A stretch of DNA of 64,000 nt, taken from positions 88,129,964-88,193,963 of the forward strand of contig NC_072796.1 of the NCBI RefSeq assembly GCF_028583425.1. The letters are read 5' to 3'. This document shows, one piece after another, positions 9,677 to 60,348 of this stretch. The position numbers were made by a program, and so were the translations under genes. The stretch is from Eublepharis macularius (lineage: Eukaryota; Chordata; Lepidosauria; Squamata; Eublepharidae). Position 1 is the first letter of the stretch; each line of letters begins with the position of its first letter. Below the pieces are notes generated by a model. The model did not search any database and had not been told where the DNA came from. It was given only the letters and a program-made list of their open reading frames with translations.

Positions 9677-12600
9677 TCACGACTCATGTTTTGGATATTT
9701 CTCAAAGCGTTCCAACAAAGCTTTTTGTATGCTACCTGGAATTTTTTGGTGCTTATCTCTGAGGTTTTTTATTGCAATCTTTGTCTGAAAAAGAGAGGGA
9801 AAAAATAGAAATGAACATTTTTACTCTGCATTACCACAAACAAAATACTCAAGAAGCATTCATATTGAGCATTTCAAGGCCACTGTAAATTTAGAATTAG
9901 AGCTACAGTATTTTAGTTTATTAAAAGTAGCTATTATTAAGTATCTTATTTAACTGATAAATTCCATTCAACCTCCATCTTATTAACTTCTTAAGAAACG
10001 ATCCAAATGTACCCTATCACCCCATGAACATCTACCATATAATGATATGACTTTGCATAGGGAAGGAATGTATTATCAAATCACTAGTTGACAGTACCCA
10101 AACTGACTTCTGATTACACCAGTGCATCACCTAAAATTCATCTCTATGTTTGCCAATATTAGGATTAGCTCAATTACAAAGCTCTCTTCATAGGTTTTTA
10201 CAATACCACTCTATGAAAACTATTGGAAGATATATTTACATACATAAAGTGCAGAAGTGCTCTTAGAGTATCAAGAATACAATAATAGTCAACAATAGTT
10301 ACAAAATACAATGATCATACAATAGTCATAAATCACAATCAATCATCATTAATCAATAAATAGAATAGTCAAAAAGCAGATGGAAAAGCTCTGGGTCAAT
10401 GATACAGGATACTGTCACATTTAGTACTTGGGCATAGTTCATAATTCATGCATAGTTCATAGTTCTCCCACATACCGCCGTTCGAACTGGTTACAATATT
10501 TGAATTAGGAATACCCTTTTCTTCTTTTCACATGCTCTTTGCCGTATAAGGAGCCCATGTGTTCTGATCAGCGCTAGAGGCAGATCCATATAATTGCAAG
10601 CTTTTATATTTTCAAAGTGAGCATACCATTGTTTGACTGGCCTAATACTCTTTGGCCTAACAGCCAAAGATCTTTTGGTATCTAGTAAGATCAAACCTGC
10701 TGGCCGCCTTGAAAACATTTTAGGCTGAGGAGTAAGATGGAAATCTTTTAAATAAATACATCTACTTAAAGGCTGCCTAATATCTCCTTCATTCCATCTC
10801 CAAAGTATTTTAAAGTGCAGTCTATAAAAAAATATCCCCAGCAACATTCTGGGTTCTAAGTATGGTTGCAAAGCGTTACCTTGACAAAAATGATTTGTCC
10901 CTTTAATAGGACTCTTGAAAACAATGTGGAGGGAAGAAAGGAGCCCCTCCTCCTCTGGCACTATAGTGCCTATCAAGATTGGGCCCCTGTTGTGCTTTGA
11001 AAAGTAAAAAAATCAAGGCTCTAAAATAGTGCCTTATGGAAGCCATGGCATCAACTAGTTTGGCCCTTAATAGAAAGAATCAGAAGGTCTGGGTTACAGC
11101 AAGTATATCTCTAATTCCCAAAATACAGGTAATACTAAAAAGAAATCCTGCAGGTGTGTGTGTGGGGGGGGGGGAGCTATGGAGATACACTCCTCACTGA
11201 GGACTAGTGGCCATCTTCCATAGTACAACGAGATGCCTATAGAGAACTCTAGAAAAACTGAATTGTGCAACCAAAAGGAAACACATTGCTTAAACCACCG
11301 AGAGAGAGAACACTGCTGTACCTTCCTGCGATACTGCTCTGCTTAGAAGCCATACAGGTATAGGGTTAAAAACAAGCCTGGAGAGAAATGTCCTGTTCCT
11401 TTAACAGAAGCTTCATGTACAAAAAGAACAGCTGAAGCTTTTCATGGCATAGAGGTAAATAAGATCACCATAAGCCCAAGCAGATAAGGCAGGATAGAAC
11501 TTTTTAAAATAAATAAATAGCATCCCATTAAGCATCTATTAAAGGAATGGGACTTTTTTCCTCCAAGCCTTTGGCAACCCTGTTCACACCCAGAGGGTAT
11601 TAAACATGACCTCCATTTTCAATGGAGCAGGAGGTCCCCCAGGTTATACTCTCCCCTCCCCGCAATCATCACTGGCATCTAATAAAACCATGCAACCTAA
11701 ATGAGAGGGTGGGAGCTGGATGGAGCACTGGGCTACTAGGATTAATATGAACAGGTGGCAACACCAAACCGCCTATCTGCAGCAAGTGCATGGACCAACC
11801 AAAATGACTGGTATGTGGATTATCCAATCAATATGAGCAGCTTATCCCAAAGGACTGCTGAGGTTTTGTAGTAAGGTTTTATCACCCAGGAAACTATAAG
11901 AATGCAACTTTTACTTGGCTTCCTATTTAAAACTACTGTATTTTTAATTGGATTGGCTCCTATAATAACTTAAGCACTTTTCTGGGACTCTTGTGCTAGC
12001 ACTAGTGCAAGACTGCATGAAAAAAATAAGAATTTTTTTCATCTCCCACACCTTACATAATGCTGCTCTAGCAAAACACACTAGTTTATATATGATGAAC
12101 TTATCACAGCACAAGATTTCTTTATTTAAAATATTTATATCCTACCTTTCCATGGTGCCCAAGGCAGATTACAAAGTATACACATTTAAAAACAGTTACA
12201 CATGAATTAAAATACTGCTCCACTAAAAACAACCAATGGGAGTACATATATAATTAAGTATGCAATATTGTTAATATGAAACTTGCCTTTTCAGCTAGTT
12301 CCTCAGCTGTTATATGTGGATCATAAGTAATGGGATCTCCTACGTATGTGCAAAATTTGACTGGAAACCCTCCATATATGGGAACAATTGGCCATCGGGT
12401 ATGCTCATACAGCCACTTCAATGGCCCTGTACATAAGATTTAAAATAATTTAATAAAAGGTTTTGAGAAATGTTCTATTGCAGACATAGGCGATGGAATA
12501 AGCCCTGATTTTAAACAGACCCCTTATTATCTGTTTTGTAATATAAGTAGGGTGTAGTGGTACATGAGAAAAGGCCATGCAGTTGACTCATAATTGTGCA

Positions 12601-15600
12601 ATACATGCCTAGGCTGTCATGCATGATATGTTGCAGGGCCTTAATCTAATTCATAATTATGCATGTTTAACCTTCAATTATTATATTCATTTATGAGTAT
12701 ATAAACATGTGCTAGATATTAATCCAAAAAAATCAAGTTATGAAATAACTAGCCAATGTCAAATGGTAGTGAATTCTAGAGGGAAAACACGCAAAAAGGC
12801 AGTTGAACATTTAAGAAACAGAAAGAAAACATGAGCAGGATAGATTGAGGGACACCTAAAGGAGACAGAAAAATGAGAAGGATGCATGCCCAGCAGCTGA
12901 AAGCTCAGTAAGACTTCAAATGAACTGCAATTACATGGAAGTCTATTTAAAATCAGTGGAATTTATAAAATGTTCATCTCTGAGGTATAAGCAGCATATG
13001 GGAAGATAAAGCAGAATCAATCTTACATATTTTTCCAAGTGCCCTGTATCCTTCCCGAAGATTGGTTGTAAAAATAGGGATGATGGGCTGAAAGATGTGG
13101 GAAAAACATTACCAGAATTTCAGTCTCCCATTGTTTAATAATCCTGTGTTAGTATCACAGTGTCCATAAAGAAAATGTTACTTGGAATAATCTCTACAGT
13201 ATGAAATTTTGTCTCACTGCTCATGTCAGAACTAAAATTCGTCACTCTTGAAGCTACTGCAAGACTCTTGTTTACTCTGCCTTACTGTGCAATAGGATAC
13301 TGAAATCAATGGGCTTAAACTGGCGTAACTCTGTACTGTTGGGTAATCAAAGGAACAGAGTTAGAACCATTTAAAACCACATTTTGAAAGCTTAATTTGC
13401 AACATTAAGACTCAGTTCATGTGTTGAAGAAATGCATGGATGAGAGTCCTTGAAGAACTCTGTGGCATTCTGGGGAAATTAAGAGGGTTCTTTCCCACTA
13501 ATGTTCAGAGCAGTTAATCTGGACAGGAGAGCCTTCAGGGACTGACTTATTGAGGATTCACCTGCGCTCAACAGAGATGGGCACGAACAGCAATACAAAC
13601 AAAAAAAGTCACGAAAAACCCAATCAGCTGTTCATGAGGCCCCATTCTAAACGAACAGGTAGTCATTGCAAGCCTCGTTCGTTGCTGTCCATTGCTTTTT
13701 GTCAAGCCAGACAGGCACCTGCAATCTGATGGAGTGAGTGTAAATAATGCAGCGGAATTACGCTGTGCTGATTAGAGAGGCAAAAAGTTTTATTTGAGGA
13801 AGTTACATACTTGATCGTAAAGAGGAGAGAGAGAGATCCTTGCTATCTGACTACATCTTGCAGAGAGAGAAGAAGTGTGGCAGGAGAGAGAAGAAGCAGG
13901 ATATTGCCCTGTTTAGCCCAATAGGAGACAAGGAAATGACCCCCAGGAAACAAGAGAGGTGCTGCTCTCACTGTCCTAACTAAGTGATCCTTGCTGCCCC
14001 CTGCATGGTAGGCTCTTCTTCCTTCTTGCTGCTGCAGTACACCAGACATTGCTATTTCCAACACAATCAATTCCCTTGGCAACTTAGGCAGGGATTGTCT
14101 GAACTCTTGCTGCTGCCCTGGAAACCCCAAACTAAGCCTAATTTAGCTTGATAGGCAGGTCTTCTTTTCAAGTGTGGAGCTCCAATTTGTTACAAGGGAG
14201 CCAAGAGCAGGGGGGAGGGGGGATCCCAGCTCTGACTCCACAGACAGTGGAGTGGGAGAGAGACAGTTGCTGTTGGCATTTTGACAGAGAGAGTGCATTG
14301 GAGCTTGAATTTTCTGTGTGTGTGGTGGGATAGGGGTCTACCCCTTCAAGTTTCAGGGCTGCTTTCCTGCTGCCTGCTCAGGTAAGGCTTCTGGGAGTGG
14401 TGCAGTAGGGATCTTGACTTGGATGATGGCTGGAGGAGAGCCTGCTGGCCCCCACAAACAGCCAACCATGAACATGTTCATGAACAGGGCCATGTTTGTG
14501 GTTGTTTGTGAGTCCCTGTTTGAACAACAAACATCACGTTTGGGTTTTTTTCTGTTCGTGCCCATATCTACTCAGAAGTAGCTGCCACCTTTTCACCAGC
14601 TTCACTTCGTATCTTTCTTCTCCGCAACTGCAAAATATTTCAAAAAGCAAACTGTTTGTTTGGTTAGCTGCTGGTCTCTGGATCAGTCTAAGAAAATGGC
14701 AGCTTAAGCAAATTAGGAACTTTAAACTTTGAGTAAGGAAGACAGACTTGCATGGAGCAACAGAAGCATGAAGAGATCCTTCTGCTGCTTTTTTCTCTCT
14801 GTGGGCCTGAGAAGGCAATGGTTAACCCCTCTCCTTCACCTTTCTTGCCCCACAAACTATTCTGAACACCAGTGGAATGAAGACGCTTTTTCCCCCTCAT
14901 TTCTTCTTTCATATCCTGTCATGATAGATCAGAGGTCCTGAACTGTGCACCTTTGGAACTCTGACAGAGTGTGGTAAGTGCAGCAACAAAATGGCTGCCA
15001 CAAAATGGCTGCTGCAGAAGGTGAAGCAAGCCAAAAAATGGCTGCTACAGCTTACCTTCAGTCGCATACTGAAGATCTTTGTGTTCTGGAGGCAGCTTTT
15101 GCCAAAGCAGTGTTTTTAAAAATCTGCACAGCCAACCAAATCTCCAATAGTCAATCAGAAGCCATGCTTGGCAAAAGCCCCACCCTGCCAAACCCACTTT
15201 CTAAAAACACTTGGCGGGCACCAGGAAAGTTGTCAGAGGGTGCAATCATGCTGATGGGACCCTTGTGATACTTTTTCTCCTCCTCTCCCACAAGTACATG
15301 CAGTAACAGTACTAATTAAAATGTATCCTCTATGGTACTGCTGAAAGGTTGTATCATGTGAACACAAGAAGCAGTCTTATACTGAATCAGATCATTGGTT
15401 TATCAAAATCACCATTGCTTACCCTCACTGGCAACAACTCTGCAGCATATCATAGTTCAATATAAGAAGTCCAACAGACAACATTTCTCATTTCAGGACA
15501 AATCAAAACAACCTACACATACATTCTCACTAAACCTGTATAAATGGCTGAGGATTCTACTAATTTTATCGACAGTTTTAACGCAGATGATTGCATGCAG

Positions 15601-18600
15601 ATTTCATTTGAATGACAAGAACTTCAGAGCACAGCATGTGGCCACTTACCACTTTTGCATCTATGGCCACATGAGCAAAACCTGTACGCTTGCCCCACAA
15701 GAGACTGTAGTTCTCATCGCTAAACAGCGCTTCCCGGACTCCACCAGGTAGGACACCTAATAAGTACCCCTTTTTCAGAATTTCAACACATTGGACTCTT
15801 CCATCTTGCGTAAGACCTTGTACATTATAAAACAGCCTTATACCTGAAAAAGAAAATAGGCTATTATACTGAAATTCCTAAAACGTCTAAGAATTCCATA
15901 GAGTAGATATGTGACAAAAGATTACCTCCTCCCAAAGTGCAGGGAAAAAATCAACTACAATCCATGAGGGTTTTGATTCACTAGATAATTTCTATGCAAG
16001 CAAGAGGGAAGGGATTTTTGCTGATTTACACATCCTGCAGCAGACTTCTGACTTCCCTCACACCCACATGCTGTTCCTGAGGGGAACCCAAATCTCTTCT
16101 ATCAGACTGGTTTAAATACTCAGAAGGGGTCTGGAAATGCTACAGAGAGAGGCAGGTGAAAATCTTGTTTGGATTCTTTGGCTGTATTATCTAAGTGGAT
16201 CAATCAAAAATTCACTATAATTTACACCAACCTCTCTTTTTAAAGTGTTATAATCTCTTTATAACCCTTCTGAATATTTAACCCTTAATGAATGTACATT
16301 TTTATGCATTTGAGGAAGTACACTCTGACTCTCAAAAGCTCATGCTGAAATAAACTGTTAGTCTTTAAGGTACTACCAGAGCTACTTTTTCTTTCTCCCG
16401 AAGTTAATAATGAGATATGCAATTTATTATCTTTGCAGGAAATTACTCTATTGCCAGCATGAATAAATTATTCATCTACGTCACAAAATAAAATCTGACA
16501 TATACACATTCCTACTTGCTTGCAGTACAATGATAAATATTTTCATCCAATTTATTTATGTATCTGCTAAATCAAAAGCATTCAAGGTCAAACAAATTAT
16601 ACTATTTGTTTAAAAAGGTTTAACAATGCACCACTCTTTTAAAAAATTAGGCTTCATAGATGTGTAAAATCAAGATTTTTTTTCTTCTTTGTGATCCTAG
16701 CAACATTTTCTAAGTGCAACCAAGTATGTGATAATCTAAGGGCATCTGTTAGCTTAAAACAATGCTCCCATTGTGCTTTAGCAAGACTGTACCCTGTTCA
16801 CAAGTTACAGTGAAAACACATACAAACTGTGTACAGTGTACACTTGATTTGTCTTTATACATGAATAATTCTAATGTTATGCTCAATGCCTGTATGGCTC
16901 AACATGTGATTGAAACCCCACATTTTCCAGGTACTGATCCCCAGTTTCATTTGTAAAGAGAATGCAGATTGGTAATTTCTTATAAACAGATGCATGTGCA
17001 TTCACTGCAACATGTTAACATGAAATTCAGGAAAGTGAGAGAAAGATTGTTCAGATCAGGGATAAGACAAGGAGAAGCGCAGGTTAAGGAAGGCTAAGGG
17101 TCCCAGAGAGAGAGAGCAACAATGGCTCGAGTGGAACAGACCTTGAAAAATCACAGTGTCTGAATGGGGGAATCCATCACTTGCATGATTTTCTTATACG
17201 ATCACCCTCTTTGCAGATTTATCAGCAGGCATATCTGTTCAGCTGACAACTGGATGGGGCATTGTCTTCTGGGGTGAAGCATTATATTCATTATATTTAT
17301 TTATTCATTATATTTATTTTACAAAATGTATACCCCACCTTTCTGCCCTCAAAGGAGCCACCAAAGCAACTAACAAATTACAAAAATACATAATAAAACA
17401 CATCTTAAATTTCTTAAAAACAAACAAAAACACATCATTAGAACAATTAAAACCAAGCTAAAATACACAAAAATATTAAAAAATTAAAACGTATGCAGTT
17501 AGCTCATTAAAAATAAGTTTGTGACAATAACTAATTGAATCCTTCAGTGTCTTACCAATACTGACTCCATAAAGCCCCAATATTAGCCTCTTTTATATGT
17601 ATTAATGGGAGGACAGTTATGATGACACACATTCACACAGATTTCCAGGCAACATGTCAACACGTGCCCAGAAAGAGAAGCTTTTTGACAACCACCCAAG
17701 TATACTCAAATATGCCAACATTTCAGAACTATACAATAACGTGAGTGGAAAACCACAAATGAAGGCAAAAACGATTAACTAATTAACAACATTATATTAC
17801 ACCATATAAGTGAATCCAATAAACAAGTAAGATCGGATTCACTTATATGGTGTAATATATTGTTGTTAATTAGTTAATCGCTTTTGCCTTCACTTGTGGT
17901 TTTCCACTCACGTTACTGTATTACACTGTTTGAAGGCGTCTCCTTTTTTGGTTTGAATGTTTCAGAACTGGCATATAACATATTGTTATATTTTTATTCA
18001 ACTACAGATTATAGTCTCTTAGTCTGTAACACACACATTTCTACCAACACAAAACACACATTTTACCTGGTATTTTTGAAAAATGATAATCAACCACAGA
18101 GTGGCAGAGTCTGCCTGTCTGTAAGTACAGTCTAGAAACAAAGTAGAAATAGTCTAGAGGAAATGCTCCATGGTAAAATACAAAAAGCCCTGGTCCTTTT
18201 GGTACCTTATCCATTCCACGCACTTCATAACCTGTTCAAAATGGAAAAAAAATAATATTATTTTGGTAGAAGCATTTTTTTTACCTAAAGATTAGTAGGA
18301 AATAAAAAAAGATGTTATAACCAGTAGGGACATTACTATAGTCCAAAGATCCACAACACGGTACCCTTGGATGCTATGGCTCCCACCTATGTTTCCGGGT
18401 GCTTACTTTCCCCCAAAGCATCTGTTCCTTAAAGCAAAGAGCAAACTTCTGGCTTTTCTCCACTTTACTGGAGGAAAAAAGGTACCTCGAAAGCACCCAG
18501 GGGCATCATTTTCGTACCTGAAGAGAGTATTCACTTGCAAACAAATGCCTCCATTAGAGGAGGATGCTTGGTTCTGAATCTCCTCACATTTTGTGGAAAC

Positions 18601-21008
18601 TCCCCATTATTTATTGGTCCCATGACCCCCATGGCAGCCATTTTGTTGTGGTGCTTGTTACAAGTTCTCAAAATTCCAAAAATGTCTATAGGCTTAACAA
18701 GATTGAGGAGCCCTAGTACAAGCTTTGGGACCCAGGAATTTATCCTGCCCCCAATTCCATCTTGAATTTCCAGTAGTCAGTCAGATTAAGCCTTGTACCT
18801 CCAGCACAGGTTTTCCGTTTTTACTATTCAGGGGAGAATGGAGACTGAAGCTGACTCACTACAGTAGATTGTGGCACCTAAAAATTATGAATCTGATTTG
18901 TACTCACTGGATACAACAGGAATGTAGAGCAATTTCTAAACTCCTGTATCACCACAAGACTACCTGGAACCCAAGCCATATCTTGGGTTGCCAACCTGTA
19001 AACTGGTTTCTCTAGCTGTTCAAACTGATATTAGTTTGATATGCAGGCAATTATCAGGTGATGTTGTTTAATTTCATGCCAAGGAAATCTTTAACTGCTC
19101 ATTTCCACTCATTAAGCTTCTATTAAAGAGATGGGACATTTTATTCATATCCTGTGGGAAGCTGAAATGTACTGCTACCATATATCGAGGCAACAATAGG
19201 CAATCCCCCTCATGTTTTAAATAATGAGTCCTTCCACTTACATGAATGTCAGAAAATTCCCCAAATAAGTTTTTGGCCCACAGTAGCCACAGCAGATTTC
19301 TGTGTAAAAAACTCCTCGACCTAAGGTCCTTGACCTTAGTCAAGAAAGTAAGACGATAGCATTGGTTAGTAATTTACTAGTATTAATACAAAGCCCATAA
19401 AGCGTTCTTTAGCACAATGTGTATTACTTCTCTTGAAAGCATGAATGACAAAGAGCACTCATGGTCAAAATGAATTCCAGCTGCTAAGAACTTATAGAAT
19501 AGCTTGCATAAGGTCAGTAAAGCTCCCACTCTCCCAGCTTTCCACAAGGTATGCAACACTGGATTATTCAGGAGGAGGGCATTCTCCTCAGATTATAGGG
19601 CTGTGTCATAATAAATAGCTTAGAAAGATCCCTTGGTAGGGATAGGGGCTATAGACTGTGCTATTGGGTACTGTCTGCTGGTGTAGCTAGGCTCCTACTA
19701 GGGTGTTTCCACATGCTAAGCATGTCATGTTAATTAGTTACACTGTGTTTCAGAAAGATGTCATCTCTTTATGCTTGTTTCAAATTTTCTGCTACTATTC
19801 CCTATTGTATCTGCTCACTAAATGTCCTGTTAGTCATTATTGTATTTTGCTCATAGAATGTCCTAGTATATTGTATTTCACTTGCATTGCGTAATCTCCC
19901 TTGTGTCTTACTAGGTAGGAAGGGAGGAAGGGAGGCTGGTTTTCTGTATTGGGTAAGAGTTGAACATCTCAATTTGTATAATAAAGTATAATAGTACAAT
20001 GAATAAAAAAGCAATTAATTTTGGGAGGCCCTTCTTCAGTTGCCCCTGTCATCTGAGATTAGACAGGTGGCAACCCAAGACACGGCCTTCTTGGCTGTAG
20101 TGCCAAAACTTTGGAACTCCCTCCTTAGGGAGATTCATCTGTCTCTATCATTGTCTCCTGCCAGCAGGTGAAGCCCTTTTTGTTTGGTTTGGTGTTCCCC
20201 CACTAACTATTATTGGCCCTCCTCCCTGGTTGTATTTTTATATATGTTTATATGTTCCACGGAACTGTTTAAATATTTTACATACCACCAGAAATTGTTA
20301 AACAATAAATAAATAATTTGACTATATTGTATAATAATGAGATAAAAGGCATGCTTTATAAAAACTAACTCAACTCAAATTATTTGCTAGAGTTGTGTAT
20401 TGGCTAAGAGCCAGGACATACCCAGTTCAAACTGTAACACCTACAAACTTACTAGGTTGCCTTAGGAAGGTCTCACAGCCTTTATTTCCCCTACCCCCAG
20501 ACTGTAATACAGAAATAAGACTAGCTCACCTTACAGAGATAAGATTCCCGACACAATGAATAGGAACCACTGTGAATACTCAAAAGCAAACATCAATTCT
20601 AAGATATTTTAAACAGAGTGTTTAAAAATTGTCATAATGTGGGCTCTATCCGAATCCACCAATACAATATGATACCCCACTGTAACAATTCTTACCATGC
20701 CACACTATGCCATATATGTCCCAAAGATAACTCACTGCCCTCCTTCCATTGTCCCATGATTTACTGAGATAATCACTCTTTAAATTGTTCTTTCTTTTGT
20801 AAATATGAAGGAGAAGAATAGAAAGATAAATGAAGCCAAGTATAATTACAACAGGTGAAAACAGGATTATGAGGGGCATCAAGAGATACACTTCATAGTT
20901 TCCAAAATGTTGTAGGTAATGATTTGGATAAATCCATTCTTTCAATAAACTTGACAGCCAGGTCACATCTTCTTGCCCAGAAGAGTAAGATTCACTTCCG
21001 CTGGTCAT
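9677..21008 (-). CDS. TMEM68-like: TMEM68-like membrane acyltransferase, gene A (six coding exons)
   Basis: Coding exons on the minus strand, in order: 21008-20696, 18231-18067, 15843-15650, 13087-13027, 12426-12287 and 9784-9677, giving 326 codons plus TGA. The first coding exon begins at 21011, three bases before the ATG. Splice sites are GT/AG except the fifth coding exon donor, which reads AAG|GCAAGT (GC-AG). Visible protein features: a hydrophobic membrane segment at about residues 40-69 followed by HIYKRKN; H125-G-A-F-P-L-D131, the acyltransferase His/Asp motif; PGGVRE at 192-197; PIIPIFT, YGGFPVK and the C-terminal ITAEELAEKTK and LRDKHQKIPGSI. The order and length match TMEM68 (about 324 residues in human), an ER acyltransferase of the DGAT2-related group linked to triacylglycerol synthesis. 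Identity to human TMEM68, judged from memory, is only about half, so it is called TMEM68-like. All exons are open with conserved motifs, so it looks functional. Substrate is inferred only. Confidence 0.9.
10491..10976 (-). other. Unrecognised 161-codon open frame in the last intron of gene A
   Basis: A continuous minus-strand frame lies between the last two coding exons of gene A and in the same direction. The translation is basic and aromatic-rich (for example YLEPRMLLGIFFYRLHF, RRPAGLILLDTKRSL) and does not look like random GC-driven sequence. No family is recognised and no splice sites tie it to gene A. The best guess is a relic ORF of a mobile element. Confidence 0.3.
12110..12225 (-). 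mobile_element. LINE/SINE 3' tail relic in gene A intron
   Basis: CTTTATTTAAAATATTTATA then CCTACCTTTCC, AAGGCAGATTACAAAG and AT-rich DNA match, in reverse, the GGTATATAAAT plus A-rich tails of reptile LINEs and SINEs. It lies just downstream of coding exon 5 of gene A. Confidence 0.4.
13572..14574. mobile_element. About 1-kb non-autonomous hAT element (GGGCACGAACAG ends)
   Basis: The left end contains AGATGGGCACGAACAG and the right end CTGTTCGTGCCCATATCTA, so the termini are inverted repeats of about 16 bases. The left terminal TAG seems damaged. Flanks CTCAACAG and CTCAGAAG agree at six of eight places, fitting a decayed 8-bp hAT target duplication. The inside is non-coding and repeats AACA/TTGTTTGT motifs near both ends. 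It lies in the gene A intron between 13087 and 15650. Related termini occur on the element at 60984-62942. Confidence 0.7.
14930..15267 (+). mobile_element. Non-autonomous hAT element, CAGGGGTCC family
   Basis: It begins CAGAGGTCCTGAACTG and ends GATGGGACCCTTG, decayed forms of CAGGGGTCCCCAA termini. It contains repeated AAAATGGCTGC blocks, CTTACCTTCAGTC, CTGCACAGCCAAC and CACCCTGCCAAACCCACTTTC. Flanks TGATAGAT and TGATACTT match at six of eight positions, as expected for an old hAT 8-bp duplication. It sits in a gene A intron. Confidence 0.65.
16310..16395 (+). mobile_element. Partial copy of an AAGCTTATGCT interspersed repeat
   Basis: CTCTCAAAAGCTCATGCTGA, AATAAACTGTTAGTCTTTAA and GGTACTACCAGAGCTAC match the central part of the better copies at 50810-50938 and 51304-51429. 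It is a short unit in a gene A intron. Confidence 0.5.
17285..17510 (-). mobile_element. LINE/SINE 3' tail relic in gene A intron
   Basis: TTATTTATTCATTATATT then GTATACCCCACCTTTCTGCC and AGCAACTAACAAATTAC followed by an A-rich run. In reverse it matches the tails that end many CR1-like LINEs and tRNA-SINEs. Confidence 0.4.
17731..17959. repeat. Foldback element: 87-bp near-perfect palindrome with 10-bp flanking duplication
   Basis: The left arm (17731-17817) is the reverse complement of the right arm (17835-17921) with only a handful of mismatches; the loop is 17 bases. Landmarks are ATACAATAACGTGAGTGG against CCACTCACGTTACTGTAT. A 38-bp unpaired tail follows to 17959. The whole block is bounded by TTTCAGAACT at 17721-17730 and again at 17960-17969. 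It lies in the gene A intron before the exon at 18067-18231 region on the downstream side. Confidence 0.75.
20030..20330 (+). mobile_element. CR1/L2-like LINE 3' end
   Basis: The plus strand reads TAFLAVVPKLWNSLLREI, the ORF2 C-terminal block (LWNSLP-x-EI) of CR1/L2 LINEs. A 3' UTR follows, ending CATACCACCAGAAATTG then (AATA)n at about 20305-20320. It is 5'-truncated and lies in the gene A intron just downstream of the first coding exon. Confidence 0.6.
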
Positions 21009-22075: not shown

Positions 22076-22199
22076 ATAAATATAGACACATAATTAGCTT
22101 TTGCAGTAATGTGGTCAACAGACAACACTCTATTCTTCTTTTCCCACACATGAAGTTTAGTACCCAAATTAAAGTGTCTGCAAACAGCGGCCACCTTCT

Positions 22200-22840
22200 T
22201 CCGTGTTACACAGGCTACAGCCCATGTTCAAGGCTCGTTCTGGCAGCGCCGACAGAGGCCGACTCCCCGCCGTCTGGGGCGCAAAAAAACCCTGAGCAGC
22301 CCCCGGCCGCCACAACACCTCGCTAATCTTTCAGCGTTTCAAATGCCCGAGGCCCAACATTAGGCCCCGAGACCAGCCCACGAATTCATCGCTCAAACGG
22401 CCGCCCTCCGTCTCCTTCCGCGCTTCAGCACTGGCGTCCTCCCTCCGCCTCTCCCTCGCGCCGTTCCGTGAGATAAGAAGATGCCGCCCAGCTGCCCGCC
22501 CACGCCCGACATCACCTGGCTCGGACTGCGGCTTGGAGGTCAGGCTCAGGCGTCCGTCGCCCTCTCTCCCCAAAAGCATTCTTTTGGCGCCTGCCAGCCC
22601 ATCGAAGACCCCGGCGGCGCGGAGCAGATCAGGCCGGCGGAGCACCGAGGATTCTTCCAATCCACGCCTGCAGCTGTCGAAGAAGCGCCCAGGGCGGCGC
22701 AGATCGCAGCGGCGGATTCATCAGAGTACCAGGCTGGGAGGGGCGGAGGACCGAACGGGAGCCGCAATGCAGTGGAGACGTTGGACGTCCTTCTGTTGCG
22801 AAAGTGGGAGGAAAGATTTTCATTTGCCGCAAAAGCACAC
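22200..22840 (-). promoter_or_regulatory. CpG island, probable promoter and 5' UTR exon of gene A
   Basis: This stretch is far richer in GC and CpG than its surroundings, with many intact CG dinucleotides from about 22230 to 22820. It lies about 1.2 kb upstream of the first coding exon of gene A, which starts only 3 bases before the ATG, so a separate 5' UTR exon must exist upstream. The open frames seen here on both strands look like by-products of high GC. The minus strand has an AG|GTGATG donor-like site near 22515, but the true exon boundary cannot be fixed from sequence alone. Confidence 0.6.
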
Positions 22841-42035: not shown

Positions 42036-42040
42036 ATCAA

Positions 42041-42375: not shown

Positions 42376-42384
42376 TAGGAACTT

Positions 42385-49796: not shown

Positions 49797-50242
49797 TATG
49801 ATCTTGATTTGAATTTGGCCAACACACAGTCAGCTTCCAGAACATACAAAGAATTTGTAACATGTGGATTAGCTCTAATTTACTTGGGTTGACCCATGGG
49901 ATTCAATGAGTCATAACAGCCCAAGTCAGCATTTTTTTGCATTTTCCTCTCCTAATTTCTTAGTCATTCTAAAATGTGATGGAATATTTGAATTGCTTGA
50001 AGAGTAACATAGCTTCAGTTCTTTCCACCTGGAAAGAACACCACAGGAAGGAGAAGCCTGGCCTGGCCTCAGACATAGGCCACAAAGGAGTATCACAGGG
50101 AGCTTGCTTCCCTCCTTTTCTTGCCAGAATCGCCTTATTAATGCAATAGAAGGCCTCTTAACAATGAATTATCTTTATTTTTCCAGGTCAGAAGTGACTC
50201 GATGAATGGGATTTTACTTGGTTTGTGCCATTTACTCCAAAG

Positions 50243-53200
50243 ATGATGGAGATCATAAACTGTACCCTAGGGCAGAAATTTACAACTTGCCTGACTCATA
50301 CTTTGAAAGGTTATCAAGATTATATGACATATACCTTGATACTGTTAGTGACTGTAATAATACTCAATTATCCCAATTTTTTTTCACTGTTTCTGATCTA
50401 TTTAAATCAAATTTTCTATTACGCTTATAAAAAAATATATAACCTGCCAGAAGATGTTTTAAGAAAAGAATGGAACAGACCAAGATATTTGGTGGCATCT
50501 GTTGGGACTATCCTAGGAAAGTTGTTGCACGGTAAGCATTAATTTCTTTCTTTGTCCTTTATTTATGTCATTTATAGTCTGCCTTTCTCACTAAGACTCA
50601 AGGCAGATTACATAGTATGAAATTAGTACAATCAGTATCAAAGACATTTCCATACAGTGTCAAGGACATTTCCATAGACAATGCCATAGGATAAATAAAT
50701 ACAGTTTACAAAGACATAGCACCTTTAAGACTAACCAATTTTATTGTAGCATAAGCTTTTGAGAATCACAGTTCTCTTCGTCAGATGCATGGAGGGCATG
50801 GAGGGCATGCATGCATCTGACGAAGAGAACTGCGATTCTCGAAAGCTTATGCTACAATAAAATTGGTTAGTCTTAAAGGTGCTACTGGACTCTTTTTGAT
50901 TTTGCTACTACAGACTAACACGGCTAACTCCACTGGATCAAAGACGTAGCATTAGCAAGGATTCAATACAGAGTTGAAGAACTGCTGAAACAGAACATAA
51001 TCAATTCTAGGACTGTCATTAGACAACATGAAGCACAGGTAGTATGAGATCCTGGCATTTTATCTTGTTTAGCTTTAAAAGATTTCCATGGAAAGATCTT
51101 CTGAGCATGTTTTCAATTCACAAATATCATCTGCAGATTGTGTTAGGGCTCAGACATGGAGGAAAGGGGCCCTTCTCATGCTCATGCACACACGCACACA
51201 TACACACACCTCCAGTGGGGCACACAGTAGGTTGGGTCTAGACAAAATTTTCCACTAATGGAAAGGATAGGTAAATTTCCACCAATTCCTTCTTCCTGCT
51301 GCATAGATCCAGAGGAGTTAGCCGTGTTAGTCTGTAGTAGCAAAATAGTAAAGAGTCCAGTAGTACCTTTAACCAACTTTACTGTAGCATAAGCTTTCAA
51401 GAAACACAGTTCTCTTTGTCAGATGCATCCCTGGGGAAATGTTTCTGGAAGATTTTTCTGCCAACATCTCATCTTGTTTGACCTTCAAGTATTGTGAAAG
51501 AACTCTTTGTGATACAGTACCCCTTCTCTTCAGAAAGACAATGAGAATCCAGCAATCATCTTATTTTATTACAAGTAATTCAATGTGATTTGATCATGAT
51601 CTGAGAAACTTATTTGATAAATTATATTTGACACTTGAATAGAATTTAAAGAATTCTATTCAATTTAAGGAATAGAATTCTATTCAATTTAAGGAATCAT
51701 GAATTTAATATTTTGAATCTAGGTTAGAGAACACAAGTTTAGTGTGCATTTTTATTGATTTTTTTTCAATAAGATGGAATCTCATAGGGTGGGAAAGTAT
51801 CCCGAAATTCCTAATAATTAAAAACACTAGCAGCAGCAAGGCAACAACACAGATTTGCCTTCATAAAATGAAAAGATAAACAGGGAGGGACACTCTAGTA
51901 TATGAACAAGACCAGCCAAACATTTTTCAGCACCCTCTGCTAGCAGCTAGCTGAGTACCTTGCCTGCCACCCAAGCACCACCACCCCAATAGCCTGGGTG
52001 TGCACAGAACCTCCATACCCTAAGCTGAGCTGCCACACAATGAGCCAGGTGCACAAGCCCTAGGTGCTCCTTAAGCTGCCACACCAAATTCAGGCACACC
52101 CCAAAGTTGCTGAACCTGAACTGGGTGCACACAGACCTAGGCATCCCCTGAGCCACTGTGTCCAAGCTGATGATCACAGTAGGGCTGCCAGGCCTCATGC
52201 TACAGTAGGAGGCAGCACTTGTTGCCCACCTCTGCTCACAGTGGAGGTGAGAAAGAAAAAATTAAGTCGGTATCATGTGCACTGTGATGTCACTTCTGGG
52301 GGAAACCCAGAAGTGATGTTGGGTAGTTCTTGGAATCACTGGAAACTATGGTTTTACCTAAAAGTTTCCAGTGATTTCTAGAGTTACTAGATGTGATGTC
52401 GCAGCATACATGACATCGTGCCCCATGGCCCCCATTTTCAAAGCTTCCACTAGTTACCTAGCATGGCATGGCAACCTTAGTTCACAGACCCAGACATGCC
52501 CCAACCACTAATCTGGGACCCTGGCAAGCAAGAAGCACCTGCTGTTACTCTATACACTGGGTGGGTGGGGAAACTGGCGGGGGCAGAGCTGGATGCTGCC
52601 TGCTCTTTTCTCCGTGCCTTCTTAATGGGGTAGGGGTTGGGGTGAAGTGGGAGAAGGTATCCCAGGTAAGCAGGCCCTGGCCCCCAGGTCATGAAACCAA
52701 GCAGCAGCACTGGGGCTGGGGGTGCTGCTCAGGATTTCCACTTATTGCCCCTGGCATCCCCCATTCACCACTCTGGTGCCCTAGACAATTCCGTAGATCT
52801 ACCTAATGGGACAGCCAGGCCTGTACATCAATCAAAAGCATGCTATGAAGAAGCTTCAGATGGACAAGCTTTGTACAAAGAGCAAGACCATATAATTGCA
52901 TCAGGAAAGATCATATCAGGAAGGTTCATGTCAAATCTAAAATAAAAATACCTGCAGGTTGGGTTATAAAATAAACCATCAGACCCTATTGAAGAACTCC
53001 ATACTTAACACCTTTATCTTGTTATGTTTTGGTCAGGCACAGATTGAAGGGTAAATAAATAATCAACAGTCATTGCCAATTTTGATTAACTTCTCCCCCA
53101 GTTCCACGTTTCTTTTCTGCTTGCAGGCTTTTTCACTGAGTGTTCCTTGTTTAGCAGTGTAAGAATTAGGTTTGCCAAGTCCTCTTACCCTCCCAGCAGG

Positions 53201-56200
53201 TGGGGAGGGAACCTGGCACTTACCTTTATAATCTTCTTGGGCCTCTGTGAAGCACGGAAGCATGCCTGCCACTAGACACAAGGATGTCACTTGAGGAAGT
53301 GATGTCTCACAGCTGGCAGGAGTGTGCTGGCCTGGGAAGTTTTTTGCCTCCTGGGCCCATTCCCCAGGCCTTTCCCCCCCACTGGCCAGGTGAATGGTAG
53401 CGGGGGGCAGAGGCTGGGAGTGGGGAATCCACCTCTCCCACTGGGGGACCTGGCAGTAAGAAGTGAAGTGCTTTAGGCTGTCCCTTAGTCTTAGCTTATA
53501 GGAGAGGGGAGACACAATAAAGTCAAGGCTAGTGCCTCTTTCCTTTCTATTATCCTTTGAAGAGTAGATTGGTATTCTCAGGACATCCTTCCTTCTGCCT
53601 TGCATACCTCTCTTCTTGCTCTCTTTTTCATGTTGCAGCCATGAGGGTAGGACAAGCCATCCCTACTGCATCCAGCCGGTACCTTTGTGCATGTAGTTTT
53701 AGCCCATTGCTTCGCGTCCTACCCTCTGCTGCCTACTGGAACAGCTCTTTGCCCTCCTCCAAATGAAAGGCTGTCATTTGGAGGAGGGCAAAGAGCTGTT
53801 CCAGTTGGCAGCAGAGGGTAGGACGCGAAGCAATGGGCTAAAACTACATGCACAAAGGTACCGGCTGGATATTAGGAAAAACTTTTTCACAGTCAGAGTA
53901 GTTCAAAAGTGGAATCAGCTGCCTAGGGAGGTGGTGAGCTCCCCCTCACTGGCAGTTTTCAAGAAGAGGCTGGATGAATACTTGTCAGAGATGCTTTAGG
54001 CTGATCCTGCACTGGGCACGGGGTTGGACTAGATGGTCTGTATGGCCCCTTCCAACTCTATGATTCTGTGATTCATTCCTATCCCCAGGAGTGCCTTAAA
54101 TAAAGGACTCATATTTCTTTTCTAAAGCTTAAATCTGGCTCCAAGTGGGAGTCTGTTTCTCTGCATATACTTTGAACTCACCTTCACACTCTCTGCTACA
54201 CACACTACGCTGCTCTGCAACAAGCAGAAGCACCTTCATGCGTCTAATCTCTCAGGATTTCTGCTATAGAATCATGATCTCCCCGCCCCCCCAGCGTTGT
54301 CATTCCCTCAGTTTAACCTAGGACAAAATGGAGTGAAGCATATATGCTGCCCTGAGTTCCCAGGGTAAGGAGGGATGAAAATTAAGGGATAATAAATGGA
54401 TGGCTGATTAATGTATTAATAGGTACAGAGATTATTATAGACACATAGTCAAGAAATTGCTTGACTAGTACCTCAATAGCTTTAAAAGTTTTTTAAGAAA
54501 ACAACATGGAAAGTTTTTCCCGTCATACCCACTGTTCATTTGCCCACCTTATGCAATCATCTTGTTTTAAGAAATGTAGATAAGGATGAGATCTGTGTCT
54601 ATATGAAACAATACTGAAGCTATTATGTCATCTCGTTCACAGGTTATGAGGTCTGTGGAATTGAAAATATACCAGAAGGCCCAGGACTTATTATCTATTA
54701 CCATGGAGCCTTGCCTATAGATTATGTGTTTTTTGTATACTTATTCTTCATCACCACAGGAAGATTCTGCTACAGTGTGATAGATCATTGCCTTCATCAT
54801 CTCCCATGTAAAAAAGAATTCTATATCTTTTGTTACTAGACTAGATCAGACTAGACTGGTTCCACCAGGTTTCACTAGAAAATCAAACATATTTTATACC
54901 AAATGAAACAACAATGAATACATTTTTAAAAGAGACACTCAAGTGTTATTGTGTATATACTGCACTATAGTATGTATTTAATGGGGAAGGAGATCTGAAG
55001 GGGTCAGACATTCAAGGGGAGGCAGTTGCTTAAATCAAACTCTTTGTGACAGCCCTTTGTCCAAGACAATTTTTCCCCAATGGGAGTAGAAGCACAGAAT
55101 CATCAAGCCCCCCCCCCCCCCGCACAATGCAGGAAATTAACAACTACCTAATTTACCCTCTGGACCTTAAGTCTGGGGGTATGAGGGAAAGCCTGTAAAA
55201 GAAGGGGAAAACTAAGGCGGGGGAAGGAGAATGGTATAACACACATGCTGATACTTTCCTGCAAAGGCCTCACCAATTCATTAAAACTAAAGTGAGGACA
55301 ACAGTTTTACATAACACACATGCTATCTATTATTTAAAAGTACATGCACAATAATCATTTTCCATGTTTCTCCTGGTCCCCTTTTTTCAGTCACAAAACT
55401 GATTAGGAACATCATTTGTCTTTGTAAATCAAGAGAAGAATGTATTGAAAAGCTAAAGAAAGGCCATCTGGTGGGTATTGCACCAGGTGGACTTCGAGAG
55501 CAAAACTATGGAGATAACACTTACAAAATGATCTGGGGGAACCGTAAAGGATTTGCTCAAGTAGCTATAGATACAAAAGTGGTGAGTGATTTCTCCTTGA
55601 CTGTCCCTTTGTCCCTTCTTAGATTGTAAGCTGGCTAGATATAATTATTTCTCCTACCATAAGGAATTTATTTCATTTAGTAGGATAATTTGGTGCCGTT
55701 TACCTGATAAGAAGCAATCGAATTCATATCTATACTTATTCAAGGTAAAGAACATCACATTTCACTCATACTTCATTCCTAGCAATAATACAAATTTCAA
55801 AATACTGGCGAATTTCAGGATTATAATAGGTTCAGTGATCCTTCAAGGGCAGCAATCAGCAACAAGGCAAATTTGCACCTCAACTGATGTTTATTTGGCA
55901 AGGTCAAAAGCAAATGAGACAATTCCATGTTGCATTGCAGCAGTGATCCTAGTCCACATGGTTTACCACATTACCATCCCCTAAATGTTCTTCTTACTAC
56001 CTTCGTCTCAAAGTGGCTCAGTAAAAATGAATTTGTTGACAATCTTATAATCTGGAGCATTTTCCAATAAGACCTTCATTTAAAACATGCCAACATAGCA
56101 TTTCACTGATTTACACAACCAGATGTTTAACTAAGTCTTCATAATTTCATTTATTTCATTTTTTTTAGCCAATCATACCTATGTTTACACAAAACATCCG

Positions 56201-59200
56201 GGAAGGATACCAGACATATGGAAATATATGTAAGTTACATTTGATATATTCTTAATAAGCAATTATTTATACTGCATTCTATGCATACTTTTAAACTCTA
56301 TTTAATTCAGTGGGATTTTTTCACAAGAAAACACATATTAGGTAGGAATTGGGGGGAACATGGGGGAATGCCATCAGTGATGGCATGATGTCACTTCTGG
56401 GGGAAACCATAGAATTTCTGGTGAGTTCTGGAGAGGAATGATGTCACTTCTGGGTTCCCCCCAGAAGTGATGTGATACCATCGCTGACATCTTTTTCATC
56501 CCATTATTTTTCTCTAGTTGGCCACAGGAATGGCAGTGAAACAGGAACCAGGGACAAGGGATCTCTTACCCCTAGAAGGAAACTGGCAGCCCTACATATG
56601 GGAGCTAAGATCAGTTGTCCTTTGGGATTTTTCAGGAACCACAACCTGTTAGATGTAGATGATAGCAGCTGCTTTTTAATAATAGGCAGATCTTCCAGAG
56701 ACTTGCGATAAACACATGAGGTTCTTGTAAGCCTGGACATATATCTCTTTTTCCATAACTTATTTGAGTTACTATTACCTGGAAAATTCTAAACTAGTCT
56801 TTACCAAGACATTTTACCTTCTGATATTTAATAGAATTATTAGGCTATGAGCCTGCGGATGCGGGGAGGGCGGAATATAAATGTAATAAATTAAATTAAA
56901 TTTAATATATTTGCGTATCTTTTATAGAAGAACAGTTGTGTGTATACACTTTGTGATGAGAACACTGACAAAGACAATATGTTTAAATGCATTTGGTCTT
57001 TTATGGTTTTGTGGTTCAGAAGATTATAGATTTCCCCCCATTAAATTCTATTTCGTTTGTTCTGATTATTGGTTTCTAAGAGCAGATTTGTTTTTTTCTT
57101 ATATCTTTGTTCCTCAATGTTTTAATTTGATTTGTGTGTTGGTTTGGTTTCAACTTTACTTCCCCCAGTTTTTAAATGTAAAAATCCAGTTTATCTGCAT
57201 AGAAGTTGTCTGCTTTCATATTTATACTGCAAGTTGAGTAAATAAATATACTTATGATGAATTTTGTTCTACACTTTTCTAGAGACCAGGGATGAATGTT
57301 CATTATTTCTTTTAAAAAAGTGCACCTCCTCAATTTTGTTTGTTTTCAATGAAAGAAAATGTTCTGTGCATATATGCTAGGACTATATTCTGTGCATGGA
57401 ACTCTGTTTGTTTGTTTGTTTATGTCATTTAGAGTCTGCCTTTCTCACTGAGACTCAAGGAGGATTACATAGTGTGAGATTAGTACAATCAGTATCCATT
57501 TCCATACAGTTATCAAGGGCATTTCCAAACAGTGTCAAGGACATTTCCGTAAACAATGTCATAAGTTTTTACAAGGACATAGCATTAGCAAGGATTCTGT
57601 CAGAGTGTCAGTTTGCTGGTCAGTTCTCAAGCCAAAGCTACACCATGTTCTCGTGTTATAATCTGTAGTTGTTTAGTTCTCTCCCTCCAGGCCCAGGTGC
57701 TGCCCAGGCCACCTCTTTCCATGGGAGCGAAGAATTCTTATCAGCCCGTTCCGGCTGACCTTGACGTCCTCGCCTTCCCAGGCCTTCTAGACAGGACTAA
57801 GGGGGGAGGCTGGGAAGGGGTGTTTGAAGTGTGGTTACTTTCATTTTGTTTGTCATTCTCAACAAAGCTTTCGTTCAGCCAAGGCCTTTATAGTTCTTGG
57901 AATATGGCTACTTGTATCCTGAGCATTGTCTTTCAATAAACCTTTTGGAATCAAGAAACTTTGTGCTTCTTGCAGAAGGCGGAAGACGAACTCTAGATAA
58001 CTGGGATGCCATAGTCTGACAGATCCAATACAGAGTTGAAGCTTTTAAATTACAGCCAAGATAAATAATAGGTATTTCGATATTTATATCCTAATTTTCT
58101 CCCTCCTAGAGACTCAAAGTGGCTTAGAACATGGTTCTTCATTTCATCCTCACAAACAACTTTGTGAGATAGGTTAGATGGAGAGACTAAAGTCACCCGG
58201 CAAACTTCCAGGGAAGACTGGGAATTCAAACTTGGTTTTCCCAGATTCTAGTCTGTCACTCTAGCAAAGATGCTATGCTCTGGTAACCTACTCAAAGTGT
58301 TCATGACTTTTCATGGATTTTCTACCCGCAGATGTGCATCCAGTAGCTTTCTTCTCTTGCATTTTCATTTTTAAATGTTCTTTATTCAGCTGAAGGCAAG
58401 CTGCATGTGGTACCTCTCTTGGCTCCTTGCAAGCCTCAGATAATGTTTGATGTTTTAATATTATCCCAATCTTACCTTAATATACAGGGCCGATGAGATG
58501 GCTTTTTGAAAAAACACGATGTATATTCTTTCCATCATATGGACTAATTCCAGTTAAACTTCGGACACATATTGGAGAACCCATTCCTTATGACCCAAGT
58601 ATAACTGCTGAAGAATTGGCTGAAAAAGTAAGTATTTCAATGCTTAAAGGCTAATGCTCCCAACAAATTGCCTGTCAGTCACACCCAATATAAACCTAGT
58701 CTGTATTGTACTGGGAATGATTTACAAAGCTAAGTTTGTGTCATGGTCATTTGAATCCAAATGAAAACAATCCGTTTTGGGTATTCAGAGAAAGCCAGCT
58801 GTCTGTCAGCTGGGGCTAGTGACAAGTAGCAGAACCCAGGGCAGGCAAGGTTTCTGTGACATGAATATCAACCAAAGCTCTGAAGGACCATGTCAGGTAA
58901 CATAGTGCAAGAGGGGCAAGTATCCAGAAAGTAACATGATTGCTGCACAGTTTGCTCAAATTGTTGAACAGGCTCTGAGCTTGGGACTTTATAATGCTTG
59001 GTATATACATAGTAGTCCTTAGGATCAGCTGAATGAGTGCTTAATCAAATAACAGAACTGGTACAGAAGTCCAAGCATAGGGCTCACTTTGCAAGAGATG
59101 CACTATGTTTAAATGACTTTTTGATTTATTAATGTTTATTAAGTAATATTAATGTATTAATTAATGTATTTATTTTTAATTAGTGACTTTATAAGCCTCT

Positions 59201-60348
59201 TATAGCATTGGATGGATGTGGGATATACCTGGAATATAGGTTTGAGAAAGTATGGGTATATCTGGGATAAAGGGCTCTTTTCAGATGTTACATCCAACCA
59301 CATGTAAATTCTCCCAAAACATACATTCATCGTGTTGTATGAAAAGGAGGAAACACATGTACTTTGCATGCATATAAAACTCCAGTATGCTCAAACATAC
59401 ATTCTGGTTCACACATATCAAAGCTACATGCATATGCAAAATAGGACAACATGGAGACATGAGAATCAGAAACATCATGGGCAGTGCACACTACCATTAT
59501 GTGAATTGCTGAGCACCCATTATACTTGTATATAGCATGTGCATAGTCTCGCCTGCTGTTGAGGGGAAAAGTGAAAGCCCGACATTGGGGATCCACAAAG
59601 ACTCATGGGAGGAGAGGCGTGGAGTAAACAATAATGAAAGATACTAAACTCTGGGACTAGAATAACAGGTTCCTCCTGAGGACTAAGCCTTGAGCTATAG
59701 TGCAATTGCTTTACACTGCTAACTATTGGAATTTGGGCTTAAGCAAACAGTAAGCTACTCATGTACAACCCATGTACTCCAGGGTATTATTAACTGCCAA
59801 ATTGTTCTAAGCATTCTGTGCCTCCTCGAGGGCACAGAGCAGGCTCAGTCTTATCAGGCGATTGGGGGGCATGATCTGTTTTGTTTCCTTTGCATCTTTT
59901 GTGCCATTTGTTTTTGTATACTGTTAAAAATATTTCTGGCCACAGCATACCAGCAGCTTACGTTGTCAATATCCTATAATGTCTCAGCCCAGAAGAGACA
60001 GCAGGAAAAGGCCCAGATTCCAGGAAGTCAGAACCAACTTTATTCCTGAGACTTTGAAAGCTGCACTGACATGCCACATAATCATAGATAGAACGGTACC
60101 TATTGCTGCATGTACATGCAAGGGGCAGTCTATGACAAGGCCTAGATATCAGTTGGTACAGGGAACTTTATAAATCTTCCCTAAATTTCTGAAAACGGAG
60201 GTAAATGCTTTATTCTAAATATGTTTGTTTTCTCTCCCAACAGACAAAAATTGCGATAGAAGCCTTACGGGACAAACATCAGAAAATACCAGGAAGCATA
60301 AGAAGAGCTCTTTGGGAGCGTTTTGTGAACTATCACAAAGATAAATAA
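50243..60348 (+). CDS. TMEM68-like: TMEM68-like membrane acyltransferase, gene B (six coding exons)
   Basis: Coding exons: 50243-50531, 54643-54807, 55391-55581, 56169-56229, 58488-58627 and 60244-60348, giving 316 codons plus TAA. All introns are GT-AG. Intron phases are identical to gene A, and exon sizes are equal (165, 61 and 140 nt) or differ by one codon (191 against 194; 105 against 108). Features: hydrophobic stretches at about residues 24-55, H117-G-A-L-P-I-D123, PGGLRE at 183-188, PIIPMFTQNIREGY, the ITAEELAEK segment and the C-terminal RDKHQKIPGSI block. The acceptor at 50185-50186 opens the first coding exon, but the reading frame has a TGA at 50195 and no ATG until 50243, so the methionine equivalent to gene A's start is gone. 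The 5' UTR exon and promoter were not found. It lies divergent to gene A, about 28 kb away. Role as for gene A: membrane-bound acyltransferase in neutral lipid synthesis, by family inference. Confidence 0.87.
50555..51000 (-). mobile_element. Interspersed repeat (AGTCTGCCTTTCTCACT family), split by the palindromic insertion
   Basis: ATGTCATTTATAGTCTGCCT, CAAGGCAGATTACATAGTAT and repeated CATTTCCATA-ACAGTGTCAAGGA, then GCATTAGCAAGGATTCAATACAGAGTTGAAG after the insertion. A second copy at 57415-57597 plus 58022-58045 is interrupted at a different place by a solo LTR. In reverse the start looks like a LINE/SINE tail. Confidence 0.55.
50722..50938 (+). mobile_element. Snap-back insertion of the AAGCTTATGCT repeat with 75-bp inverted arms
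   Basis: Arms 50717-50791 and 50810-50884 are reverse complements with few mismatches (AAGCTTTTGAGAATCACAGT against ACTGCGATTCTCGAAAGCTT). The 18-base loop is GAGGGCATG twice. The right arm continues into CTACTGGACTCTTTTTGATT and ACAGACTAACACGGCTAACT, the rest of the repeat unit. CAAAGACATAGCA (50709-50721) and CAAAGACGTAGCA (50939-50951) flank it, a 13-bp duplication with one mismatch, as after LINE-driven retroposition. It lies in the first coding intron of gene B. Confidence 0.75.
51304..51429 (-). mobile_element. AAGCTTATGCT interspersed repeat, full-length unit
   Basis: In reverse: ATGCATCTGACAAAGAGAAC, AGCTTATGCTACAGTAAAG, GGTACTACTGGACTC and CTACAGACTAACACGGCTAA. This is about the same 122 bp as the right part of the insertion at 50722-50938, without inverted arms. 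I recognise it as a repeat that also appears in other amniotes but cannot name its class with confidence. Confidence 0.6.
52181..52478. mobile_element. Family M1 element
   Basis: The ends are AGGGCTGCCAGGCC and GGCATGGCAACCTT. Inside are GTGATGTCACTTCTGG and AGATGTGATGTC. The flanks TGATCACAGT and AGTTCACAGA match at seven of ten bases. It lies in gene B intron 1. Confidence 0.6.
53168..53456. mobile_element. Family M1 element
   Basis: The ends are AGGTTTGCCAAGTCC and GGGGGACCTGGCAG. Contains GATGTCACTTGAGGAAGTGATGTC. The flanks TAAGAATT and TAAGAAGT match at seven of eight. It lies in gene B intron 1. Confidence 0.65.
53670..54075 (+). mobile_element. CR1 3' end with a 97-bp inverted duplication at its 5' side
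   Basis: Plus frame 53773-53999 reads GKELFQLAAEGRTRSNGLKL, YRLDIRKNFFTVRVVQKWNQ and LPREVVSSPSLAVFKKRLD, the CR1 ORF2 C-terminus. The 3' UTR GGTTGGACTAGATGGTCTGT and the octamer-type end ATTCTGTGATTC are the CR1 hallmark. The first 97 bp (53774-53870) are repeated in reverse at 53670-53766 with almost no mismatch, around a 7-base loop. It lies in gene B intron 1. Confidence 0.85.
56340..56593. mobile_element. Family M1 element
   Basis: The ends are AGGTAGGAATTGGGG and CTGGCAGCCCT, the left one decayed. Two GATGTCACTTCTGG boxes lie in it, about 49 bp apart. The flanks ACATATT and ACATATG match at six of seven. It lies in gene B, in the intron after the 61-nt exon. Confidence 0.55.
56840..56905 (+). 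mobile_element. LINE/SINE 3' tail
   Basis: GCCTGCGGATGCGGGGAGGG, CGGAATATAAATGTAATAAA and TTAAATTAAATTTAATA, matching the tail at 37375-37430 in the other orientation. Confidence 0.55.
57598..58021 (+). mobile_element. Solo LTR nested in another repeat
   Basis: It begins TGTCAGA and ends TCTGACA, a 7-bp inverted pair of the canonical TG...CA type. GATTC (57593-57597) and GATCC (58022-58026) flank it, a 5-bp target duplication with one difference. A CTTTATAG box and an AATAAA poly(A) signal at about 57934 lie in the expected order. The host repeat resumes exactly behind it (CCAATACAGAGTTGAAG, as at 50960). No internal region is left. It is a fossil of an ERV/Ty3-type element, moderately old by the single mismatch between the duplications. 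It lies in the gene B intron between 56229 and 58488. Confidence 0.82.
58073..58270 (-). mobile_element. tRNA-derived SINE
   Basis: CATCCTCACAAACAACTTTG, GTCACCCGGCAAACTTCC, TTCAAACTTGGTTTTCCCAG and CTAGTCTGTCACTCTAGC are, in reverse, the SINE body and the B and A box regions. It lies about 220 bp before a gene B exon. Confidence 0.6.

Follow-up and report, generated by a model that had tools for sequence, protein, structure and literature searches.

The window analyzed here, a stretch of 64,000 nucleotides from the gecko Eublepharis macularius (C7:88129964-88193963), contains two genes, A and B, that likely belong to a tandem set of five paralogs of TMEM68 (DIESL) at the ancestral TMEM68 locus, TMEM68 itself having apparently relocated to another contig, C5, and that would encode mono-/diacylglycerol acyltransferases of the endoplasmic reticulum (ER). 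Splice-site models, with both strands read, place gene A on the minus strand (21008-9677; 326 aa) and gene B on the plus strand (50243-60348; 316 aa), each intact, with six coding exons and without a stop or frameshift (Table 1). The initial annotation had described two divergent six-exon genes with the same layout, phases, and motifs, and these models bear it out, coordinates and motifs included. Intron phases 1,1,0,1,0 (introns 1-5) are common to both genes, and three exons are of equal length in A and B (exon 2, 165 nt; exon 4, 61 nt; exon 5, 140 nt). Of the ten introns, nine are GT-AG; gene A departs from this at intron 5, with GC at the donor site. The two proteins share 155 of 316 aligned residues (49%), with 31.5% identity in the part encoded by exon 1 (29/92) and 56.6% in the remainder (125/221). 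In structure, phases, motifs, and identity, the likeness of A and B is far above chance. That neither gene is a retrocopy, as was also proposed at the outset, holds as well: the introns are kept, and introns in all six genes of the family described below rule out a retrocopy origin.

Table 1. Coordinates of genes A and B and of related features. Positions without a contig name are those of the window; the others are given by contig.
Feature	Position	Strand	Remarks
Candidate gene A promoter: CpG-rich stretch	22087..22986		GC 0.57, CpG observed/expected 0.91
Gene A coding exon 1	20696..21008	-	ATG at 21008; N-terminal membrane anchor; hydropathy segment residues 37-72
Gene A exon 2	18067..18231	-	catalytic motif HGAFPLD (H125, D131)
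Gene A exon 3	15650..15843	-	PGGVRE (motif LPGGVRE)
Gene A exon 4	13027..13087	-	motif IV proline
Gene A exon 5	12287..12426	-	GC-AG intron comes next
Gene A exon 6	9677..9784	-	stop TGA, ends at 9677
Gene B coding exon 1	50243..50531	+	ATG at 50243; sequon N6-C-T; membrane anchor
Gene B exon 2	54643..54807	+	catalytic motif HGALPID (H117, D123)
Gene B exon 3	55391..55581	+	PGGLRE (motif APGGLRE)
Gene B exon 4	56169..56229	+	motif IV proline
Gene B exon 5	58488..58627	+	splice-site model
Gene B exon 6	60244..60348	+	stop TAA
T1	C7:87959963-87932928	-	317 aa; phases 1,1,0,1,0
T2	C7:88005159-87981275	-	320 aa; phases 1,1,0,1,0
T3	C7:88075820-88034625	-	311 aa if started at later in-frame ATG; phases 1,1,0,1,0
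C5 gene	C5:18552355-18522650		330 aa; six exons, phases 1,1,0,1,0

Genes A and B are divergent, and their first coding exons lie 29.2 kb apart. Within the spacer, 29% matches other sequence within the ~330 kb compared, a lower bound for its repeats, and two of the four long open frames tested with Pfam match retroelement domains (PF03372 and PF00078). Upstream of gene A, a 0.9-kb stretch has the top CpG observed/expected ratio among the 22 CpG-rich stretches listed for ~304 kb; assigned by position, it is a candidate promoter of gene A.

The two genes had initially been taken for a pair, a view that did not survive a search of the genome (2,236,738,225 bases in 72 contigs), in which A and B proved to be two of five genes on C7. 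Three more full genes of the same layout (T1, T2, and T3), all on the minus strand, lie left of the window on this contig. Translated searches with protein A and the C5 protein, in which only the best-scoring candidates were counted, give at least six family members with open frames in the genome, five clustered in ~257 kb of C7 and a further one located on C5. The gene order on C7 is XKR4-like, T1, T2, T3, A (T1 to A on the minus strand), B (plus strand), TGS1, and PENK-like. With the C5 protein as the query, all 33 candidates (E up to 10) were scored, and six belong to the C5 gene, 25 to the C7 cluster, and two to a fragment on C1; the gene A query, with 25 matches among 38 candidates, contributes a single further exon, a broken one, at C7:95940344. 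A seventh full gene was rejected, as beyond the six genes there were only fragments on C1 and C7 among the best candidates scored. The C1 fragment (C1:232080892-232081254) is an open frame of 106 codons in which an exon-1-like piece runs directly into an exon-5-like one, and the C7 fragment (C7:95940344-95940430) is a broken exon 5. The six genes are under purifying selection, with dN/dS (NG86) of 0.17 to 0.36 in all 15 pairs; dS among them is 1.2 to 2.5 and so close to saturation or past it.

The window falls within the ordinary TMEM68 locus, here filled by five diverged genes. Named by Pfam family and order, not by full gene models, the neighbors are TGS1, XKR4, and PENK. The TGS1-type methyltransferase family (PF09445) has its sole genome match at C7:88241294-88241530, ~51 kb beyond gene B, and XKR4-like exon matches are found at C7:87649857, 87805633, and 87898324-87898923, the last of which ends ~34 kb before T1; in each of these three XKR4-like rows the match is interrupted by a single in-frame stop, possibly because it runs beyond the exon ends. 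The PENK-like match (C7:88684067) is one of three opioid-precursor matches. In human, the order is XKR4, TMEM68, TGS1, and LYN. The chicken order, as given in PMC11210043, is XKR4, TMEM68, LOC421125 ("transmembrane protein 68-like"), TGS1, and LYN. It had been suggested that the genes might stand in place of canonical TMEM68, and they do, with an XKR4-like gene and TGS1 flanking the five. The initial annotation had also allowed for a plain ortholog in its usual neighborhood accompanied by a known paralog; the neighborhood is indeed the usual one and a chicken paralog is annotated, but neither A nor B is a plain TMEM68 ortholog (AU p 0.04 and 5e-5, respectively; see below). Between gene B and TGS1, at C7:88205585-88206631, there is a 349-codon open frame that by eye resembles part of a retroviral envelope gene. 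Elsewhere, at C1:23151511-23528329, several exon matches to XK-related genes, scoring alike or nearly so and spaced ~65 to 87 kb apart, suggest a tandem array.

Which of the six genes corresponds to TMEM68 was assessed against an approximate human sequence, which at 334 aa versus 324 published must be wrong in about ten residues or more. Compared with the peptides of four published primers, two of which overlap, it matches at 38 of 43 residues, and the five mismatches comprise two engineered changes and three mouse-human differences or sequence errors. The C5 protein is 64.1% identical to this sequence and the five C7 proteins 48.4 to 52.7%; with A at 50.8% and B at 49.8%, the considerable difference from human TMEM68 noted at the start is confirmed. 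In a tree of seven rows (the six genes and the approximate human protein), the C5 and human proteins are joined with bootstrap/aLRT support of 100/99, and this link is retained at 94/92 on the columns before PIIPMFTQN (N-terminal) and at 86/82 on exons 2 and 3 alone. AU tests with human placed beside a C7 gene instead gave p values of 0.04 for A (borderline), 5e-5 for B, 3e-4 for T1, 3e-4 for T2, and 0.004 for T3. These values for A and B, together with the 100/99 support for C5 and human, rule out either gene as the one-to-one TMEM68 ortholog, borderline as the value for A is. Independently of this human sequence, the C5 protein has a sequon at N5 and its dyad at H130/D136, the numbers published for human DIESL; the dyad histidine of the five C7 proteins falls at position 111 to 125. 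Since none of the five C7 genes groups with human TMEM68 and the C5 gene does, the five are paralogs. The simplest reading of the sequences is that the C5 gene is probably the TMEM68 ortholog, relocated with its introns.

It is improbable that the C5 gene is instead a second copy or an assembly misplacement. A Pfam scan of ten long open frames in its surroundings found only retroelement traces and named no flanking gene, and a single genome was available, both of which leave room for these alternatives; against them, the gene has six exons with the phases of the family, lies on a 175.5 Mb contig, and is the only one outside the cluster with all six exons matched among the best candidates scored. 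For the relocated ortholog and its paralogs, we propose that the five paralogs would have arisen at the ancestral locus of TMEM68, flanked by XKR4 and TGS1, through duplications that were local and kept the introns, and that the TMEM68-grouping gene would have moved to C5 with its introns while the paralogs stayed.

Trees were also computed with a bacterial outgroup (L038), the single confirmed prokaryotic relative (two peptide patterns, 28 stretches matched, one confirmed), which is too long-branched. The best tree with this row lacks the C5-human group, with the joined tree behind it by no more than 0.6 log units (AU p 0.45), and support for the five C7 genes as one side is 48/99; with this support, and with C5 and human apart in the best tree, the root and the monophyly of the five C7 genes are not established. 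The outgroup sequence (L038:1441-2214, from a Bdellovibrionales metagenome-assembled genome) encodes a protein of 257 residues whose best segment is 41% identical to the TMEM68 family (residues 98-327), and as explanations an ancient bacterial relative, gene transfer, and a stray contig all come into consideration. A and B are sisters with 90/89 on seven rows, 95/92 without the human row, and 92/90 with the bacterial row; the relation was not recovered on two shorter column sets, and given this loss and its moderate support, we do not rely on it.

It is quite possible, and compatible with the local duplication proposed above, that the five-gene cluster is ancient, predating the bird-lizard or the mammal-reptile split, and was lost in mammals. 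The protein distance between A and B (1.3-1.4 changes per site, compared with 0.59 between C5 and human), the dS of 1.2 to 1.9 between C7 genes, and the one TMEM68-like gene found at the same place in chicken (PMC11210043) are all consistent with great age. However, the C7 genes seem to be faster-evolving, as in the region of A and B encoded by exon 1, so that distance overstates age, and instead of five genes of this kind the chicken table has a single entry (PMC11210043).

Both proteins score over the cut-off of 23 bits for the Pfam Acyltransferase family (PF01553; A 38.0 bits, B 46.9 bits). The catalytic His and Asp, at a spacing of six residues (human H130/D136), are kept as H125/D131 in A and H117/D123 in B, and so are the glycine and arginine of motif III (mouse G198 and R200) in PGGVRE (A) and PGGLRE (B); the motif IV proline (mouse P229) is present in both. 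With this family match and with the dyad and PGG.RE kept, the initial reading of A and B as TMEM68-like acyltransferase genes is upheld. DGAT2, MOGAT, and AWAT (PF03982) are related enzymes of the same pathway that A and B match weakly, but the scores (A 14.4 bits, B 19.9 bits) lie under the cut-off of 22, so that membership of the DGAT2/MOGAT family was rejected; the 28 PF03982 matches of the genome are on C3, C6, C12, and C13, away from A and B. A PDB search with protein A gave one chance match only. On the Kyte-Doolittle scale, an N-terminal hydrophobic segment spans residues 37-72 in A and 31-54 in B, versus 51-73 in mouse TMEM68. A second segment (mouse 123-145) is over the threshold of a simple Kyte-Doolittle scan in B (125-143) and under it in A, in the C5 protein, and in the approximate human protein. 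The Asn5 sequon has no equivalent in A, reads NCT at N6 in B, and is present as N5 in the C5 protein.

We regard it as very improbable that A or B is decaying into a pseudogene or acts as a regulator devoid of catalysis. The unusual donor of gene A intron 5 (AAG/GCAAGT, window 12286-12281, minus strand; GT in the counterpart introns of the other five genes) might be read this way, but introns of the GC-AG type are recognized as a minor splice class. Gene B, for its part, departs from ten columns that are invariant across the six other aligned sequences. Opposed to such decay are the open frames of both genes, their retained dyad, PGG.RE, and motif IV proline, and the A-B dN/dS of 0.36.

Mammalian TMEM68 is described as an ER protein whose MGAT and DGAT activity needs the His-Asp dyad (PMC9916437, PMC10482677); it was recognized in 2023, as DIESL, as a DGAT1/2-independent maker of triacylglycerol (PMC10482677) and is reported to be held in check by TMX1 (PMC10482677). 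By analogy, A and B would reside in the ER membrane, where the His-Asp dyad would move an acyl group onto mono- or diacylglycerol. Descent and an intact active site, both read from sequence, make it most likely that mono-/diacylglycerol is what they acylate. A and B share with human and mouse TMEM68/DIESL the PF01553 domain, the HGAxPxD dyad motif, PGGVRE, the N-terminal membrane anchor, and the address between XKR4 and TGS1, but unlike it they do not group with human, have lost the motif II phenylalanine, and, in A, lack the Asn5 sequon. The phenylalanine (mouse F165, which is human 166 by the one-residue offset of the dyad) is replaced in all five C7 proteins, by L, L, Y, I, and T in T1, T2, T3, A, and B, respectively (I161 in A, T153 in B), and is kept in the C5 and approximate human proteins.

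A and B might then have the same fold and acylate a long-chain alcohol, a sterol-like alcohol, or a lysolipid rather than act as triacylglycerol enzymes, which we consider rather unlikely. The motif II change common to the whole cluster, and kept out of the C5 gene, is in line with a different acceptor, as is the divergence of gene B directly past PGGLRE, where it reads QNYG and gene A reads ALFS. On the other hand, neither A nor B has altered its motif I catalytic residues, its motif III glycine and arginine, or its motif IV proline, and for F165 a role in substrate binding is only proposed, as one that "may be important" (PMC5417663). In the preferred reading of A and B as mono-/diacylglycerol acyltransferases, the five C7 proteins, devoid of the motif II phenylalanine and, in A, of the Asn5 sequon, would differ in acceptor choice or TMX1 control. 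Such a change in acceptor choice or control in the C7 proteins may have occurred, and we are less sure of it than of acyl transfer itself. Glycosylation is reported to be dispensable for triacylglycerol accumulation by TMEM68/DIESL (PMC10482677).

The human, mouse, and zebrafish literature consulted for comparison treats TMEM68, in the portions available, as a single gene. A known parallel is chicken LOC421125, which lies at the corresponding position, between TMEM68 and TGS1, as an additional TMEM68-like gene (PMC11210043, PMC12203006); it differs in being one such gene beside TMEM68, whereas the gecko has five and its TMEM68-grouping gene is on another contig (PMC11210043). Since LOC421125 is already annotated, an extra TMEM68-like copy is not new; relative to the portions of the literature searched, the new part is the five diverged copies, the relocated probable ortholog, and the absence of the motif II phenylalanine from all five, and no account of a five-gene cluster, of ortholog relocation, or of a shared motif II loss was found in the TMEM68 literature covered, most subscription papers being outside the search. 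Hints of use come from chicken and a lizard. LOC421125 is an egg-number candidate from ovary expression data (PMC12203006; repeated in a review, PMC13299478), a chicken "transmembrane protein 68-like" gene is one of those most strongly down-regulated when the tracheal mucosa is challenged with Mycoplasma (PMC7885271), and a TMEM68 gene is among the sweep outliers in Eremias argus (PMC9942394). These reports are hints of use, not of function. When a reptile or bird gene is named "TMEM68" from its position, for instance in an egg-number GWAS or a selection scan, a paralog may be meant.

We speculate, as an unlikely case, that the five form a lineage-private set of diverged TMEM68-type acyltransferases at a vacated address, every one of them adapted to its own acceptor or tissue. 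If so, the tissues could include skin with its barrier lipids, yolk, the eye, and the fat-storing tail. Mammals make skin waxes with the DGAT2/AWAT set, and a private TMEM68 set would be the counterpart in another enzyme family. The six TMEM68-type genes, five of them changed at a putative substrate residue, amount to natural variants for acceptor choice and TMX1 control. Not every cluster member need be active: in T2, exon 4 (C7:87991613-87991553) encodes alanine in place of the motif IV proline kept by the other members, and in T3, motif I reads HAALPID. In exon 1 of T3 (C7:88075853-88075820), the codon at the position of the C5 start ATG is ACA, and a start at the later in-frame ATG would drop the luminal sequon.
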